In this document: positions 22,930 through 32,609 of the stretch, piece by piece
How positions within the stretch are numbered: position 1 is the stretch's first letter
Layout of the letters: every line of letters starts with the position of its first letter
DNA from: an uncultured Coriobacteriaceae bacterium
Lineage (GTDB): Bacteria; Actinomycetota; Coriobacteriia; Coriobacteriales; Atopobiaceae
Assembly (NCBI GenBank): GCA_902803315.1
Contig: CADCPM010000057.1
Coordinates: 1 to 64,000 of the forward strand
Length of the DNA: 64,000 nt
Reading direction: 5' to 3'
Made by a program: the position numbers and the translations under genes
The notes under the pieces: generated by a model
Database searches by the model: none
The model's input: only the letters and a program-made list of their open reading frames with translations
Told to the model about the DNA's origin: nothing

Positions 22930-23086
22930 AGTGTGATTTTGGGTAATAAATTTCGGTATTATCCCAGTTGGGCGAGGAGCGCATTTCCCCAAAATCGCAC
23001 TGGCTATTTTATGCAGTGTGATTTTGGGAAAATCGGCAGAGCAAAACCCCAGGTAAGCACGAGGCTCGCTTCCCCAAAATCACACT
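22930..23086. repeat. Pair of 72-bp palindromic units (GTGTGATTTTGGG type)
   Basis: Two units (22930-23001 and 23015-23086) each start AGTGTGATTTTGGG and end CCCCAAAATCRCACT, so each can fold into a long hairpin. The second has the core GCAAAACCCCAGGTAAGC. A second family at 28046-28200 has different arms but the same length, pairing and CAAAACC-C-CAGG core. They occupy most of the 470-bp gap after the CoA Nudix gene; nothing else was recognised there except a TATAAT at 23187-23192. Confidence 0.7.
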
Positions 23087-24290: not shown

Positions 24291-24341
24291 CAAATAAAGT
24301 CTGTACCATGCGCTAAAGCGAATGGATACTACGCGTCTTCC

Positions 24342-27486: not shown

Positions 27487-27987
27487 ATGACCACCCTCTT
27501 TATTGACGCAGACGCGTGTCCCGTAACACGCGACGCACTCGACTGCGCGCGAAAGGCCCGCATACCGTGTGTCATTGCCGGCGACTCCGGACATAACCTG
27601 ATCAAGCATGTACGCGCGTCCGACCCAACCGACCCGCGCGACGGCTTTTGGGTGTCCACGATCTGCGTACAGCAAGGACAAGACTCGGCCGACTTCGCCA
27701 TCGTGTGCGAGCTGGAGCCAGGGGACGTTGTGGTGACGCAGGACATGGGTCTGGCAGCGATGGCCCTCGGGCGCGGTGCCCAGGCCATTGGGGTTCGAGG
27801 CGAGGTGTACGACAAGTACACCATCGACGCCCTTCTGCTGGTACGTCATGCCGAGAAGGAGGCGCGACGCAATCAGCGTCGGCACTCAACACCCAAGGGT
27901 GGGCCACGGTCGTTCACGGATGCCGACCGCAGGCGCTTCCGCGCGCGTCTTGCGGAGCTTCTGGGCGAGCTCCAAGCAAAAAGCTGA
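27487..27987 (+). CDS. DUF188 (YaiI/YqxD family, UPF0178) protein
   Basis: A 166-residue protein with LFIDADACPVTRDALDCARK, DSGHNLIKHV and GDVVVTQDMGLAAMALGRGA, the three signatures of the family, which is thought to be a PIN-like nuclease fold. Asp residues of DADACP and TQD are present. The stop is followed at once by a CTGACAAG palindrome (27984), which overlaps the last codon. Confidence 0.88.
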   Translation: MTTLFIDADACPVTRDALDCARKARIPCVIAGDSGHNLIKHVRASDPTDPRDGFWVSTICVQQGQDSADFAIVCELEPGDVVVTQDMGLAAMALGRGAQAIGVRGEVYDKYTIDALLLVRHAEKEARRNQRRHSTPKGGPRSFTDADRRRFRARLAELLGELQAKS

Positions 27988-28010
27988 CAAGTGACCTGTC
28001 CCCTTGTCAG
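27984..28010. repeat. CTGACAAG palindrome at the DUF188 stop
   Basis: A full 27-bp unit. It begins inside the stop codon region of the DUF188 gene, showing that the element is tolerated at gene ends. Confidence 0.85.
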
Positions 28011-28045
28011 CCTTTCGAAGGGGTATGCTTTTTCATTATAATTTA

Positions 28046-28200
28046 ATGGGAAATGAATCGGTTCAAAAATGCAAAACCGCAGGATTCGCTAAAACACTGT
28101 CCGTTCATTTCCCACTGCATATTTTATCTAACGGGAAATGAATCTGTTCAAAAACGCAAAACCCCAGGATTCGGTCGCAAGGGGCAAATTCATTTCCCAT
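28046..28200. repeat. Pair of about 70-bp palindromic units (GGGAAATGAAT type)
   Basis: Units at 28046-28115 and 28132-28200 start TGGGAAATGAAT or CGGGAAATGAAT and end TTCATTTCCCA. Inside are GTTCAAAAA, GCAAAACCGCAGGATTCG and GCAAAACCCCAGGATTCG. The architecture and core match the pair at 22930-23086 despite unrelated arms. Confidence 0.75.
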
Positions 28201-28233
28201 TATTCTTACAGCTATCTGAAACCTTGCGCCTAG

Positions 28234-28307
28234 CTGACAAGGGGACAGGTCACTTGTCAGCTTTTTCAAATCTTACTACCCTGACAAGGGGACAGGTCAC
28301 TTGTCAG
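28234..28307. repeat. Two CTGACAAG palindromes plus a half copy
   Basis: Full units at 28234-28260 and 28281-28307 are in the same orientation. A half copy (CATTTGTCAGC) follows at about 28313. They lie directly after the 70-bp pair and before the GGDEF gene stop. Confidence 0.85.
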
Positions 28308-28327
28308 CTGGTCATTTGTCAGCTTTT

Positions 28328-29506
28328 TTAGTCCTCGCGTACGGCCTTCATGGCCTTCTTGTTCATGTACATCTTCTCGTCCGCTCGCTTGAGGACGTCC
28401 TGCGTCGACGCGTCGATGGCGGAATCGTACACGGCCATACCCGTCGCAACCGAGACGCGCTCCCACGGCTTGAGGTCCTTGTCCACCGCCTGTAGGCGCA
28501 CCGCCTTCCTAAAGTCATAGAGCATGTCGTGCGCATCCACGAGCTCGTTGCCTTTCAGCACCACCACGAACTCGTCTCCCCCATACCTGTACACGTGCTC
28601 TTGTCCGAAGACCTTGCACATGAGGCCACAGCACGCGAGCAGGTAGTCGTCTCCACGCTCGTGCCCGTGCTCGTCGTTCACGCGCTTGAGGAAGTTGACA
28701 TCGAGCATAAATATCGCAAACACCGCGTTGCCGTTGCCAATGGCCTCGTCCAGCTGCTTGGCCCGCTCCTCATAGGCGGTCTTGTTCTTTACGCCCGTAA
28801 GCCCGTCATGATACGCCTGGTCCTCCACGCGATTCATGGGCCGCACGATGCGTCGCTCGGTAATAAAATACCCAACCACCATAAAGCCGATGATAAAGAC
28901 TGCCGAAACCGCCGCCACGCTGAGCAGCACTTGCTGCACATACGCGTCGATCTCGCCCATAAGGAAGTCCACCGCCACGTAGCACACGCAATCGCCGTTC
29001 TTGTCGTAGACCGGATCGTACACGGTGAGCAGGTGACCGAACTTGTCATCGGAGATAACCGGCTCCACCGCCTTGCCTGCCAGCAGGTCGCCAAGGTGCG
29101 CGCTAAACGATCGGTCGAACTCCACCACGTCGCCCGGCTTGCCGGCAGGCACCTCATCGGTGTCCAGGTCGAACACCACGTGGCAGCCGTCTGGCTCGAT
29201 CCTATACACATACAGAAACTCGACGTTGGGAAACGCGTCCCGCAGACGATAGAGTCGCGACAGAACCTCGTCGTAGCCAGGGGCGGCGTGTCCCTTTTGC
29301 AGGTATTCGTCCACCTTGGACGGGTCTATCTCCTCGGCCACGAGGCTGTTTATGCCGTGGGCGTACTCAACCCGATCCTCCACCTCGTACTGCCTAAACA
29401 GGCTACTGCTGCTCACGGCCACGGTGGTCAGAACGACGGCGATGCAAAGCAGAAGAGCCACAAAGACCCTCTGTCCCATGGTTATAGAACGAGCCTTTCG
29501 CCTCAA
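28328..29506 (-). CDS. Membrane diguanylate cyclase (GGDEF)
   Basis: A 392-residue protein. A first membrane helix (VFVALLLCIAVVLTTVAV), an extracytoplasmic sensor of about 170 residues (VEFLYVYRIEPDGCHVVFDL, VYDPVYDKNGDCVCYVAVD, dCache-like) and a second helix (VAAVSAVFIIGFMVVGYFI) precede the GGDEF domain. That domain has DGLTGVKNKTAY, FMLDVNFLKRVND and an intact YRYGGDEFVVVL active site. It should make cyclic di-GMP in response to an outside signal. The frame begins with TTG at 29506 after GAGGGG. An ATG at 29479 is the alternative. No EAL or PilZ partner is in the window. Confidence 0.87.
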   Translation of the reverse strand: MRRKARSITMGQRVFVALLLCIAVVLTTVAVSSSSLFRQYEVEDRVEYAHGINSLVAEEIDPSKVDEYLQKGHAAPGYDEVLSRLYRLRDAFPNVEFLYVYRIEPDGCHVVFDLDTDEVPAGKPGDVVEFDRSFSAHLGDLLAGKAVEPVISDDKFGHLLTVYDPVYDKNGDCVCYVAVDFLMGEIDAYVQQVLLSVAAVSAVFIIGFMVVGYFITERRIVRPMNRVEDQAYHDGLTGVKNKTAYEERAKQLDEAIGNGNAVFAIFMLDVNFLKRVNDEHGHERGDDYLLACCGLMCKVFGQEHVYRYGGDEFVVVLKGNELVDAHDMLYDFRKAVRLQAVDKDLKPWERVSVATGMAVYDSAIDASTQDVLKRADEKMYMNKKAMKAVRED

Positions 29507-29723: not shown

Positions 29724-31028
29724 ATGGCAAACGAAGATTACACCGCAACGAACCGCAATCGCCTGATCGCGTTCTTCGAGTCCGGAGCCAAGAAGGCCAC
29801 CGATCTGGGCAACCTGGGCGTGGAGGTCGAGCACTTTGTGGTGACGCAGGACGGCTCGCCCATAGCCTACGAACCCACTGGTTCCAACATAGGCATCCGA
29901 GACGTACTCGAATACCTTGCCGCCTGGTATCCGCACAAGGCGTTCAACTCTCGGCATGACCTTCTTGGACTGGACGGCGAGGACGGCTCCATAACTTTGG
30001 AGCCCGCCGCGCAGCTGGAGCTTTCGGCAGCGCCCTACAAACGCATAGCCGAGGTCAAGGGAGCATACGATCGCTTTCGCACGCGCGTCGACTCGTTCCT
30101 TGGGGCCAACGGCGCCCACATCCAGACGGGCGGGTACCATCCCACCCGCCGCGCGCAGGAGATGACCCTCATTCCCAAGGAACGCTATGCCTACATGGAC
30201 AGCTACTTCGCGCGCATAGGCACCCACGGGGACCGCATGATGAGGGCCTCCGCGTCCACGCAGGTGTCGGTCGACTACGTGGACGAGGCCGACGCCGTGC
30301 GCAAGATGCGCGTTGCAGCTGCACTCGCGCCCATTCTTGCCGCCATATGCGACAACACCCGCACCTACGAGGCCGAAGACAATAACGTGCCCATTCGCAG
30401 GCTCACTCTTTGGCGCGAGGTCGACGGGCTGAGGTGTGGCACCATTCCCCACATCTTCGAGGAGGGATTTGGCTTTGCCGCCTATGCGGACTGGCTGCTT
30501 GGCGTCCCGCCGATCTTTGTCACGCGTCCCGCGAGGAACGACCCGCATGGCGCGCGGGTTCGTCCCTTCTTCGTGCAGTCGGCGGCCGAGGCGTATGCGG
30601 ACGCACCCATGGACGACGCCGACGTTGAGCATCTTATCTCCATGTTCTGGCCCGACGTGCGTCTCAAGCGCTTTGTGGAGATTCGCCCAGCCGACTGCAT
30701 TCCCCAAGAGCAGGTCCTCGGGTATACGGCGCTCATCAAGGGCATCTTCTATAGCGAGGAGTCGCTGTCAGCCATCGAGGAGGAGCTGGGCGTCGATTCC
30801 CAATCGCGCGTCACTCGCGGTGCGTGGAACCTCACGAGCGAGGACGTCGCGGACGCCATCGCGCAGATTCAGGCGCATGGGCTTGCGGCAGACGTCTACG
30901 GCAAGCACATTATGGCCTGGGAGCGGCAGCTCTTCTCACTCGCCTACAGCGCGCTGCCCGCGGACGAGCGCGACTACCTTGCCCCACTGGAATCCTTTGC
31001 CGCAGACAAGCCCTGGTGGAAAAGCTGA
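29724..31028 (+). CDS. Glutamate-cysteine ligase family protein (GCS2)
   Basis: A 434-residue protein with LGVEVEHFVVTQDGSPI (ATP/Glu-binding start of the GCS2 fold), LEPAAQLELSAAPYKRI, MMRASASTQVSVDYVDEADA and RFVEIRPADCIP. These match the plant/actinobacterial type glutamate-cysteine ligases that make gamma-glutamylcysteine. AAGGA lies upstream of the ATG. The final codons (WKS, stop) run into a CTGACAAG repeat. No glutathione synthetase gene lies nearby. Confidence 0.85.
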   Translation: MANEDYTATNRNRLIAFFESGAKKATDLGNLGVEVEHFVVTQDGSPIAYEPTGSNIGIRDVLEYLAAWYPHKAFNSRHDLLGLDGEDGSITLEPAAQLELSAAPYKRIAEVKGAYDRFRTRVDSFLGANGAHIQTGGYHPTRRAQEMTLIPKERYAYMDSYFARIGTHGDRMMRASASTQVSVDYVDEADAVRKMRVAAALAPILAAICDNTRTYEAEDNNVPIRRLTLWREVDGLRCGTIPHIFEEGFGFAAYADWLLGVPPIFVTRPARNDPHGARVRPFFVQSAAEAYADAPMDDADVEHLISMFWPDVRLKRFVEIRPADCIPQEQVLGYTALIKGIFYSEESLSAIEEELGVDSQSRVTRGAWNLTSEDVADAIAQIQAHGLAADVYGKHIMAWERQLFSLAYSALPADERDYLAPLESFAADKPWWKS

Positions 31029-31066
31029 CAAGGGGACAGCTGACAAGGGGACAGGTCACTTGTCAG
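31025..31066. repeat. CTGACAAG palindrome with a partial copy
   Basis: A partial unit (31025-31039) overlaps the glutamate-cysteine ligase stop, and a full unit follows at 31040-31066. The adjoining reductase fragment ends at this element, so the repeat marks a breakpoint. Confidence 0.85.
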
Positions 31067-31069
31067 CTC

Positions 31070-31408
31070 GTTGGCGTTCCACAGGCGCTCGGCGCTTTGG
31101 GTGACGCCCACCTCGGCCGCCGCGTGGATTACGATGGTTGCGTCTTTGGCGAGCTTGGCGTAGTGGTCCGGCGATATTGCGAGCAGGTCTCGTTCGATAT
31201 CGGCCGCCACGGATTGTATGCGTGTGCCCAGGGCCTCGCGCAGGAGGGGCCGTTCGAACCAGAGAGACTCGAGGCGCTGGTATGGGGTGCGCGAGGCCTT
31301 GGGGCGGACCAAGGCTAAGATGCGAGCGTCCGTGGTTCGCATGAGCTCCTCGGCAATGGCCGAGCCCAAGAACCCCGTTGCACCGGATAATACGACCACG
31401 TTACCCAT
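31070..31408 (-). pseudogene. Thioester-reductase-like SDR, N-terminal fragment
   Basis: About 112 residues: MGNVVVLSGATGFLGSAIAE (Rossmann GxxGFLG), ILALVRPKASRTPYQRLESL, a Y.KLA strand and IVIHAAAEVGVTQSAERLWN. This is the N-terminal quarter of a terminal/thioester reductase (NAD-binding_4) domain. At the point where family members continue with NVEGT the sequence passes straight into the repeat at 31040, and translation then only reads repeat DNA. The substrate-binding part is absent. Confidence 0.75.
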
Positions 31409-31524: not shown

Positions 31525-31908
31525 AAAGTCTGTACCGCCCCGCCCAAAGTCTGTACCGCCCTGCACAAAGTCTGTAATCCTTCTCGCAAAGTCTGTAGTT
31601 CCTCAGATAAAGTCTGTAATCCAAGACGCAATGTCTGTAGCTTTTCGAGCTTTGTTAGAAACCGACAAGCCCTCTAGCTGGGACTTTGTCAAAACAGCCT
31701 TTTCAGACCTACAGACTTTATCGGGAGCGTTACAGACTTTGCGGGCCGGGCTACAGACTTTGCGCTGAGGATTACAGACTTTGTTGGAGCGGCTACAGAC
31801 TTTACGGATGGGATTACAGACTTTGTTGGCGCGGCTACAGACTTTGCGCTGAGGATTACAGACTTTGCGGGCCAGGCTACAGACTTTGTTGGGAGAGCTA
31901 CAGACTTT
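31525..31908. repeat. Sixteen-copy array at exact 21-bp period, in two inverted blocks
   Basis: AAAGTCTGTA begins at 31525, 31546, 31567, 31588, 31609 and 31630 (the last as AATGTCTGTA). After a 70-bp centre (31640-31709), the complement TACAGACTTT begins at 31710 and every 21 bp to 31899, ten copies. Spacing is 21 bp in every interval, while the 11-bp spacers vary and often read GC or AT before TACAG. Two helical turns per repeat would place every motif on the same DNA face. The array fills the space between the reductase fragment and the nrdG stop. In one frame it reads as heptapeptides, which I treat as a by-product. Confidence 0.95.
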
Positions 31909-31931: not shown

Positions 31932-32609
31932 TTAGGCGCGACGAAACTCGTAGTGCTCAAAAAGCGCCGCCAGCTCTGCAGGAACGTCCGAGGGATACAC
32001 CGTCTTTTGGGCCAGCTCGCCCGTCGTGCCCTCGTGCCTGTACGCCTGCACGGCCCACGTTCGCACGCCACGCGCCGCAAGGTCGCGCGCGATGCGCGAA
32101 ACGTCCTCCGCGCTGAGCAGATCGGGATGCCACGTGGTGCGCGTCTCCAGCTCCACACCGGCCTCAAGAGCCGCCTCAAGGCTGGCAAGCGCGAGCTCCC
32201 CCGCACCCGCAACGCCACAGACGCGCTCATAGGAGTCCCAAGGCGCCTTTACGTCGAGCCCCACCCAATCCACGAACGGCAGCACCTCGCGAAGCCGATC
32301 GGGATACGCGCCACACGTATGGAGCCCCACCAAAAAGCCCATCTCGCGCGCACGCCGTGCCGCCTGGACGGCGCCCTCCTGCGCCAGTGGCTCTCCCCCG
32401 CTCAGCACCACGCCATCGAGCAACCCCTTCCGCTGCTCCAAGAACGCAAACAGGTCGGCATCCGTATACGAAGCCGACCTTGCGCTTTGCAACTCATAGT
32501 TCTGGCAATACGGACAAGCCCACGGGCAGCCCGCCAAAAAGGCGACGCACGCGAGCTTGCCCGGCCAGTCAACCGTAGAGAAGGGCGTTATGCCTGCTAT
32601 GCGCAGCAT
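31932..32609 (-). CDS. nrdG: Anaerobic ribonucleotide reductase activating protein
   Basis: A 225-residue radical-SAM enzyme. MLRIAGITPFSTVDWPGKLA and the cluster motif CPWACPYC (C-x3-C-x2-C), followed by DGVVLSGGEPL, identify the activase that places a glycyl radical on class III reductase. The ATG at 32609 overlaps the stop of the upstream 65-residue glycyl-radical gene by 13 bp, so the two are translationally coupled. The length is typical of the long NrdG variety. Confidence 0.92.
   Translation of the reverse strand: MLRIAGITPFSTVDWPGKLACVAFLAGCPWACPYCQNYELQSARSASYTDADLFAFLEQRKGLLDGVVLSGGEPLAQEGAVQAARRAREMGFLVGLHTCGAYPDRLREVLPFVDWVGLDVKAPWDSYERVCGVAGAGELALASLEAALEAGVELETRTTWHPDLLSAEDVSRIARDLAARGVRTWAVQAYRHEGTTGELAQKTVYPSDVPAELAALFEHYEFRRA

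Follow-up and report, generated by a model that had tools for sequence, protein, structure and literature searches.

The array at positions 31525–31908 of the window (the whole stretch of 64,000 nucleotides analysed here) belongs to a family of dispersed repeats and is one of its solitary copies. We predict that it is a non-coding, multi-site protein-binding element belonging to a gene–repeat system of cognate nuclease-like proteins, an assignment that we regard as probable. This system is family-wide: each paralog has its own inverted-repeat unit, with paralog-specific arms around a shared (A/T)CCTGCGGTTTTG-like core, and units occur beside the cognate gene as well as in the form of solitary copies elsewhere.

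The array consists of two opposed blocks of the motif TACAGACTTT, one read on the minus strand (31525–31639) and one on the plus strand (31710–31908), around an asymmetric core of 70 bp (31640–31709, plus strand) that was recognised in an alignment of 26 cores. In the left block, AAAGTCTGTA starts at 31525, 31546, 31567, 31588 and 31609, and a sixth copy at 31630, AATGTCTGTA, carries one mismatch. The right block holds ten exact copies of TACAGACTTT from 31710 to 31899. In both blocks each step is 21 bp. The sequence-only reading had described sixteen motifs at an exact 21-bp period in two opposed blocks; this was confirmed, including the 70-bp centre, and the six-copy left block stands in position and phase with the qualification that its innermost copy is inexact. 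The centre itself, said to hold a lone GACTTTG (31683) and no motif copy, turned out to be a conserved core in which GACTTTG is the local version of the core element GGTTTTG. Within it we located the elements GACAAGCC (31664–31671), AGCTGG (31676–31681) at the ACCTGC position and GACTTTGTCAAAA (31683–31695) at the GGTTTTGTCAAAA position. Placed between nrdG (31932–32609, minus strand) and a truncated reductase gene (30974–31408, minus strand), the array is 24 bp past the stop codon of the former and 116 bp upstream of the latter. No open frame runs through it, with stops in all six frames, and no known RNA family was found in the window. A lone AAAGTCTGTA without partner copies is present at 24296–24305, right after a terminator-like hairpin.

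A search for the motif pair at 21-bp phase gave 122 matches in the genome from which the window comes (G000, a gut bacterium; 2.95 Mb, 87% complete) and none for the reversed, uncomplemented control pattern. G000 harbours 12 arrays, counting the contig ends C84 and C89 as one split array, and its sister species G065 (Atopobiaceae bacterium RGIG5826, from sheep gut) has 13. Among 140 genomes of the bacterial family, the exact motif occurred in only two others, G065 and G068 (Coriobacteriales bacterium S14M_St_23), both of the same genus; the few arrays of G068 are built of TACAGACTTY. This search of related genomes at 21-bp spacing had been proposed together with the sequence-only reading, and it demonstrated that the array is not unique to one strain. 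In all three species the arrays always comprise two opposed blocks round a core of 70 bp, rarely 68–69 bp, with 2 to 10 copies per block. Successive motif distances equalled 21 in 213 of 216 cases (25 arrays, two species), and 247 of 263 motif copies were exact, corresponding to 0.7% mismatch per base (22 arrays, two species), while four-fold synonymous sites of nrdG are 79% identical between G000 and G065; the motif is evidently under strong constraint. The spacers, in contrast, change (153 of 213 distinct), although they are not entirely free to vary as had been supposed: positions 1, 10 and 11 are R, R and Y and the remainder is G-rich (consensus GCGnGnGGGGY). Conservation of motif and phase rather than of spacer sequence, as originally noted, fits proteins bound on one face of the helix. 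Spacers recur inside an array at 21- or 42-bp steps, suggesting that units are gained and lost whole. Copy number varies in whole steps of 21 or 42 bp, as in a simple tandem repeat, but the motif within each unit is kept.

All 12 arrays of G000 could be matched by their neighbouring genes to arrays at the same place in G065. Core identity averaged 66% at matched loci compared to 53% between non-matching ones (nine pairs), and the counterpart core was the closest core in 9 of 12 matched pairs. At C119:9975, the G000 core shares only 30 of 70 positions with its G065 counterpart but shows 80% identity to a core from a different locus, which suggests replacement or copying between loci. Arrays occur at convergent 3' ends as well as in co-directional and in divergent gaps; at the convergent site C36/L059 the array overlaps the stop codons of both genes. 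The adjoining genes (nrdG, DegV, glycosyltransferase, kinase, isomerase and others) share no common function. The proposed association with replication or partition genes was thus not borne out, and the dispersal of 12–13 copies at unrelated genes, together with a nuclease-fold protein encoded between paired copies, speaks against an iteron, centromere or silencing site. In other species the array is absent from nrdG, where the gene order differs. No plasmid matched the array, phage records gave no match, and viral contigs gave three single, chance-like ones. Each unit tested has a counterpart at the corresponding site of the sister species, and no empty sites were found. A candidate empty site for array L058 of G065 was rejected: the place is occupied in G000 by an 885-bp insert (C39:14696–15582) flanked by GGGGATACTCCCC inverted repeats and shows no clean insertion footprint. 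By appearance the insert carries a degraded transposase-type ORF, and the fragment scanned had no Pfam match.

The 26 cores can be aligned gap-free to GnTTTTnGAAnnnnnTTnAAAAnnGACAAGCCCnTGAnCTGCGGTTTTGTnAAnAnG...; A9, A37, C39 and G41 are invariant, and the consensus reads ...CAAGCCnnTGA(C/G)CTG(C/G)GGTTTTGT. RNAalifold found no conserved base pair among them, and a structured RNA was rejected on this ground. The AT tract at positions 44–48 appears as TTTT in most cores and as AAA in others, which we read as a DNA-shape feature more than an RNA stem. A coding function was also discarded, since the G068 cores seemed open in one frame but those of G000 and G065 have stops in that frame, as was a BspMI-type site at ACCTGC, since AGCTGC, ACCAGG and AACTGC occur at the same place. 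A core model built from sequence only was then run on the 16 genomes of the genus and matched species without TACAGACTTT. In these, the inner core (CAAGCC..TGACCTGCGGTTTTGT) is located between inverted copies of quite different motifs. The core matches in G072, G067 and G071 occur in pairs around one gene, which is homologous to C37:1039–2106 of G000 and L057:5065–6120 of G065, the genes enclosed by paired arrays in those two species.

The C37 gene is itself enclosed by two arrays, with the same array–core–array unit on both sides, and encodes a protein of 355 aa for which structural models indicate two domains, one AbiEi-like and one with a Vsr/EDxHD nuclease fold. In the AlphaFold2 model (pLDDT 91), residues 184–303 matched the catalytic domain of I-Bth0305I (3r3p) with Z 9.2 over 96 of 97 residues, and E. 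coli Vsr (1vsr) with Z 7.2. A profile search of PDB sequences ranked two endonuclease chains first, although weakly (3hrl, E 0.016; 3r3p, I-Bth0305I, E 0.037). The candidate active-site residues E188 and D233 are kept in 38 of 38 sequences, and H251 in 37 of 38. When the N-terminal 182 residues were modelled alone, the best match was the C-terminal domain of AbiEi (6y8q, Z 7.7), followed by Rv2827c (Z 5.5). These two belong to the same family and rank above the remaining matches; the Z values are middling, that of 7.7 lies within a range in which chance arrangements occur, and the AbiEi match concerns the C-terminal antitoxicity domain, not the winged helix. Along the protein, conservation is lowest in the N-terminal third and among the highest in the nuclease block.

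Genomes of the genus contain 5–16 members of this nuclease-fold family, and a survey of the bacterial family detected it in 132 of 140 genomes and 32 of 35 genera, with up to 15 copies each; E-values in this survey are inflated for members used in the query. In several paralogs the nuclease block weakly matched the profiles PF04480 (DUF559) and PF18741 (REase_MTES_1575), for the most part with scores under the curated cut-offs. That of PF04480, 20.6, is exceeded in one or two paralogs (25.9, 20.8), and the array-linked C37 protein matched neither profile. NCBIfam had no match for the family, PADLOC returned only weak nuclease-domain matches for one paralog, and an HUH/Y1 Pfam match was absent from every family protein scanned.

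The association between genes and units was examined for 75 distinct family genes, with an inverted repeat defined by 12-bp arms and a loop of 40–110 within 600 bp of the gene. Such repeats were present near 66 genes (8–18 with shuffled flanks) and on both sides of 35 (shuffled, 0–2), and ACCTGC lay in the loop at 40 (shuffled, 0–2; inside the gene, 3). At nrdG-type loci, which served as natural controls, the corresponding counts were 10, 3 and 2 of 21. A plain inverted repeat is therefore less telling than a core-bearing one (p = 3e-4 for family genes against controls). By the criteria used, 35 of the 75 genes had no ACCTGC-containing unit. In 27 of 35 genes the left arm has a 9-mer in common with the right arm, compared to 50 of 1190 combinations (4.2%) from different genes. 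Between genes, arm sharing followed protein identity, being seen in 23 of 33 pairs at ≥60%, in 16 of 102 at 40–60% and in 17 of 2010 below 40%; the pairs are not independent, so that the p-values are indicative only. The arms are gene-specific and track protein identity; the ACCTGC-type core is shared.

As predicted for units that follow their gene, the arms AAGTGCGTAAC, noted beside genes of G066, G072 and G074, formed units in these three alone of the 16 genomes searched, exactly the carriers of the cognate gene. Two units flank each gene and four are solitary, all with ACCTGCG-type cores. G068 is an exception: it has TACAGACTTY arrays, yet its 88% complete genome yielded no family gene close to that of C37, the nearest one being 28% identical and lying about 3.4 kb from one array. 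Beside the single Collinsella homolog examined, no unit was seen. At L140 (G075:C16:63512 and 65229), a core pair with TCGCATTTACTATCGC-type arms flanks a SLFN_AlbA_2/HATPase_c_4 gene instead of a family nuclease. A further paralog, L194 (G075:C18), is bordered on either side by several ACCTGCGGTTTTGCGG cores that alternate with arrayed arms (TTTCGCGCGCCAC...), indicating that arm amplification arose more than once.

Two further families of units are represented in the window. A family B unit, GGGAAATGAAT...GTTCATTTCCC around a CAAAACCGCAGG core, occupies 28048–28113, followed in tandem by a second at 28133–28198 with the exact arms GGGAAATGAAT-N44-ATTCATTTCCC and the core CAAAACCCCAGG; the cognate paralog is located on G000:C107. 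G000 contains 16 exact 66-bp units of this family, among them the one at 28133–28198 and another 64 bp from the C107 gene. The family C unit at 23016–23085 (GTGTGATTTTGGG...CCCAAAATCACAC, core CAAAACCCCAGGT) has its cognate paralog on G000:C112, and a less perfect tandem neighbour at 22930–23002, read directly from the sequence, is joined to it by the linker GGCTATTTTATGC. An arm search within the genus placed family C arms in G000 only, where a pair of units directly follows the C112 gene downstream and three others are solitary, including that at 23016–23085. Empty sites for families B and C were not found in G065, units being present there too. Together with the array, the units at 23016–23085 and 28133–28198 mean that three families cognate to three paralogs coexist in the window.

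Some other repeat features were observed in the same region. Tandem B and C units share a linker resembling GCATAAAATACGC despite their different arms (L254, L256, L257, L260, L262 and window 28114–28132). Comparison of window 27650–28700 with G065:C110:101015–109268 revealed that in G065 the flanks of the family B unit are separated by 7 kb with B units at both ends; the difference is consistent with recombination between B units having deleted the intervening DNA in G000. The compact palindrome GACAAGTGACCTGTCCCCTTGTC occurs in six exact copies in both orientations (26703, 26747, 27986, 28236, 28283 and 31042); it is REP-like, contains TGACCTG and has more than 30 near copies in G065. The reductase gene next to the array is cut to 144 aa, compared to 932 aa (NAD_binding_4 + AMP-binding) for its counterpart in G065. 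Copies of the GACAAG palindrome are present at the break, which suggests a deletion between these repeats.

These observations can be set against several other explanations. The arrays could be operator sites of a regulon, in which a nuclease-dead or nuclease-silent AbiEi-like repressor would control the transcription adjoining each array. In favour of this, AbiEi and Rv2827c are autoregulators that bind inverted repeats (PMC7319586), there is a resemblance between their C-terminal domain and the N-terminal model, and each flanked gene has one unit upstream. Nevertheless, we consider a regulon unlikely, as the arrays occupy convergent, co-directional and divergent sites alike, their neighbours have no common function and the active-site residues are retained; moreover, a repressor needs neither the core nor a second unit downstream of the gene. 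Still more doubtful is a role as chromosome-organising or segregation sites of the host, bound by this protein and kept in place by selection. Such sites would account for the same-place counterparts of all 12 arrays and for a motif that is nearly invariant where four-fold sites have diverged by 21%, but the motif is altogether missing from the majority of the 16 species in the genus, several unrelated arm families exist in one genome, and one locus carries clearly different cores in two species (30/70), the G000 core being 80% like that of another locus.

Inverted, phased sites also recall the transposase-binding arrays at the ends of Tn7- and Mu-type elements. The units might be MITE-like ends of an ordinary transposon with its transposase elsewhere and the nuclease-like gene as a passenger. 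We found neither a constant terminus nor a target duplication outside the last motif, and only genes of the nuclease-fold family recur between units, with arms that match and across many genera, which makes a passenger role highly improbable. Least credible of all is a tandem repeat of passive origin or a translated heptapeptide repeat, the latter having been named beforehand as an outcome that would overturn the sequence-only reading. The recurrence of spacers at 21- or 42-bp steps within an array speaks for this explanation, but two opposed blocks, a fixed 70-bp core at 12 or more loci, conservation of the motif without the spacer, and stops in all frames of the window array refute it.

We therefore return to the gene–repeat system, and infer that the element is bound, and was probably once spread, by its cognate nuclease-like protein, which would also cleave DNA and may bring some benefit to the host. 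Binding to the arms would be cooperative, with protomers lined up along one face of the helix and several of them loaded by phased arrays, and the two opposed blocks would place the nuclease domains over the core. Since the arms vary and the core is shared, and since the N-terminal third is the least and the nuclease block among the most conserved parts of the protein, the simplest reading is that arm recognition falls to the variable part, while the nuclease domain common to all would act on the core. The arm distances, which are fixed within a family (70, 44 and others), would fit simultaneous binding of both arms. A nick or cut at the core could then be repaired by recombination, which may copy units to new places and gain or lose 21-bp steps, and gene and repeats would persist together, as RAYTs and REPINs do.

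RAYT genes are flanked by REPs and coevolve with them, and RAYT presence correlates with REP number (PMC2817692, PMC3116915). The system described here is alike in outline: the C37 gene and many, though not all, paralogs are flanked by two units of their own, solitary units are numerous, repeats are species-specific, and the repeat type tracks the protein and occurs where the gene occurs, G068 excepted. RAYTs, however, are HUH/Y1 proteins, whereas the protein here combines an AbiEi-like domain with a Vsr/EDxHD nuclease fold; it is not an HUH transposase, and the system is therefore not a member of the RAYT/REPIN group. REPs are hairpins of 20–40 bp; the arms here are 44–110 bp apart around a shared core, for which no conserved RNA or hairpin structure was found (0 conserved pairs in 26 cores), although the inverted arms themselves might pair when single-stranded. 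In one family, moreover, the arms have grown into arrays phased at 21 bp. I-Bth0305I, an EDxHD/Vsr-like homing endonuclease, is the best structural match of the C-terminal domain and resembles the present case in its free-standing gene and possible drive by cutting and repair, but here no intron or intein is involved, the cognate repeats are many, dispersed and non-coding, and the N-terminal domain differs. With AbiEi and Rv2827c of the AbiE type IV toxin–antitoxin system, the N-terminal half shares a resemblance to their C-terminal domain only; a winged helix was not found, and fusion to a nuclease fold sets the protein apart. The similarity to DUF559 and REase_MTES_1575 is that of weak profile matches at the nuclease block, and among open-licence papers we found none linking that family to repeats. 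Iterons and ParR/parC-type centromeres also have helically phased repeated sites; in contrast to them, the arrays are dispersed genome-wide, inverted around a core and have no replication or partition gene alongside.

Among open-licence papers, nothing was found on this pairing of gene and repeat. Tentatively, we propose that it could represent a new class of bacterial repeat–nuclease dyad. An AbiEi-like/Vsr-fold protein would recognise the inverted arms that belong to it, act on the core that all units share, and spread and renew its non-coding units by cutting and recombination, with many mutually distinct pairs per genome and arm recognition diversifying by duplication. The pairing offers a lead to the function of an orphan protein family of large size and, at the same time, accounts for several intergenic repeats that lack annotation. 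As many paralogs have their own recognition sequence alongside, they provide a readable and directly testable table of protein–DNA specificities. The system would be a second, independent solution to the partnership between a gene and its dispersed repeats that is known from RAYTs and REPINs.
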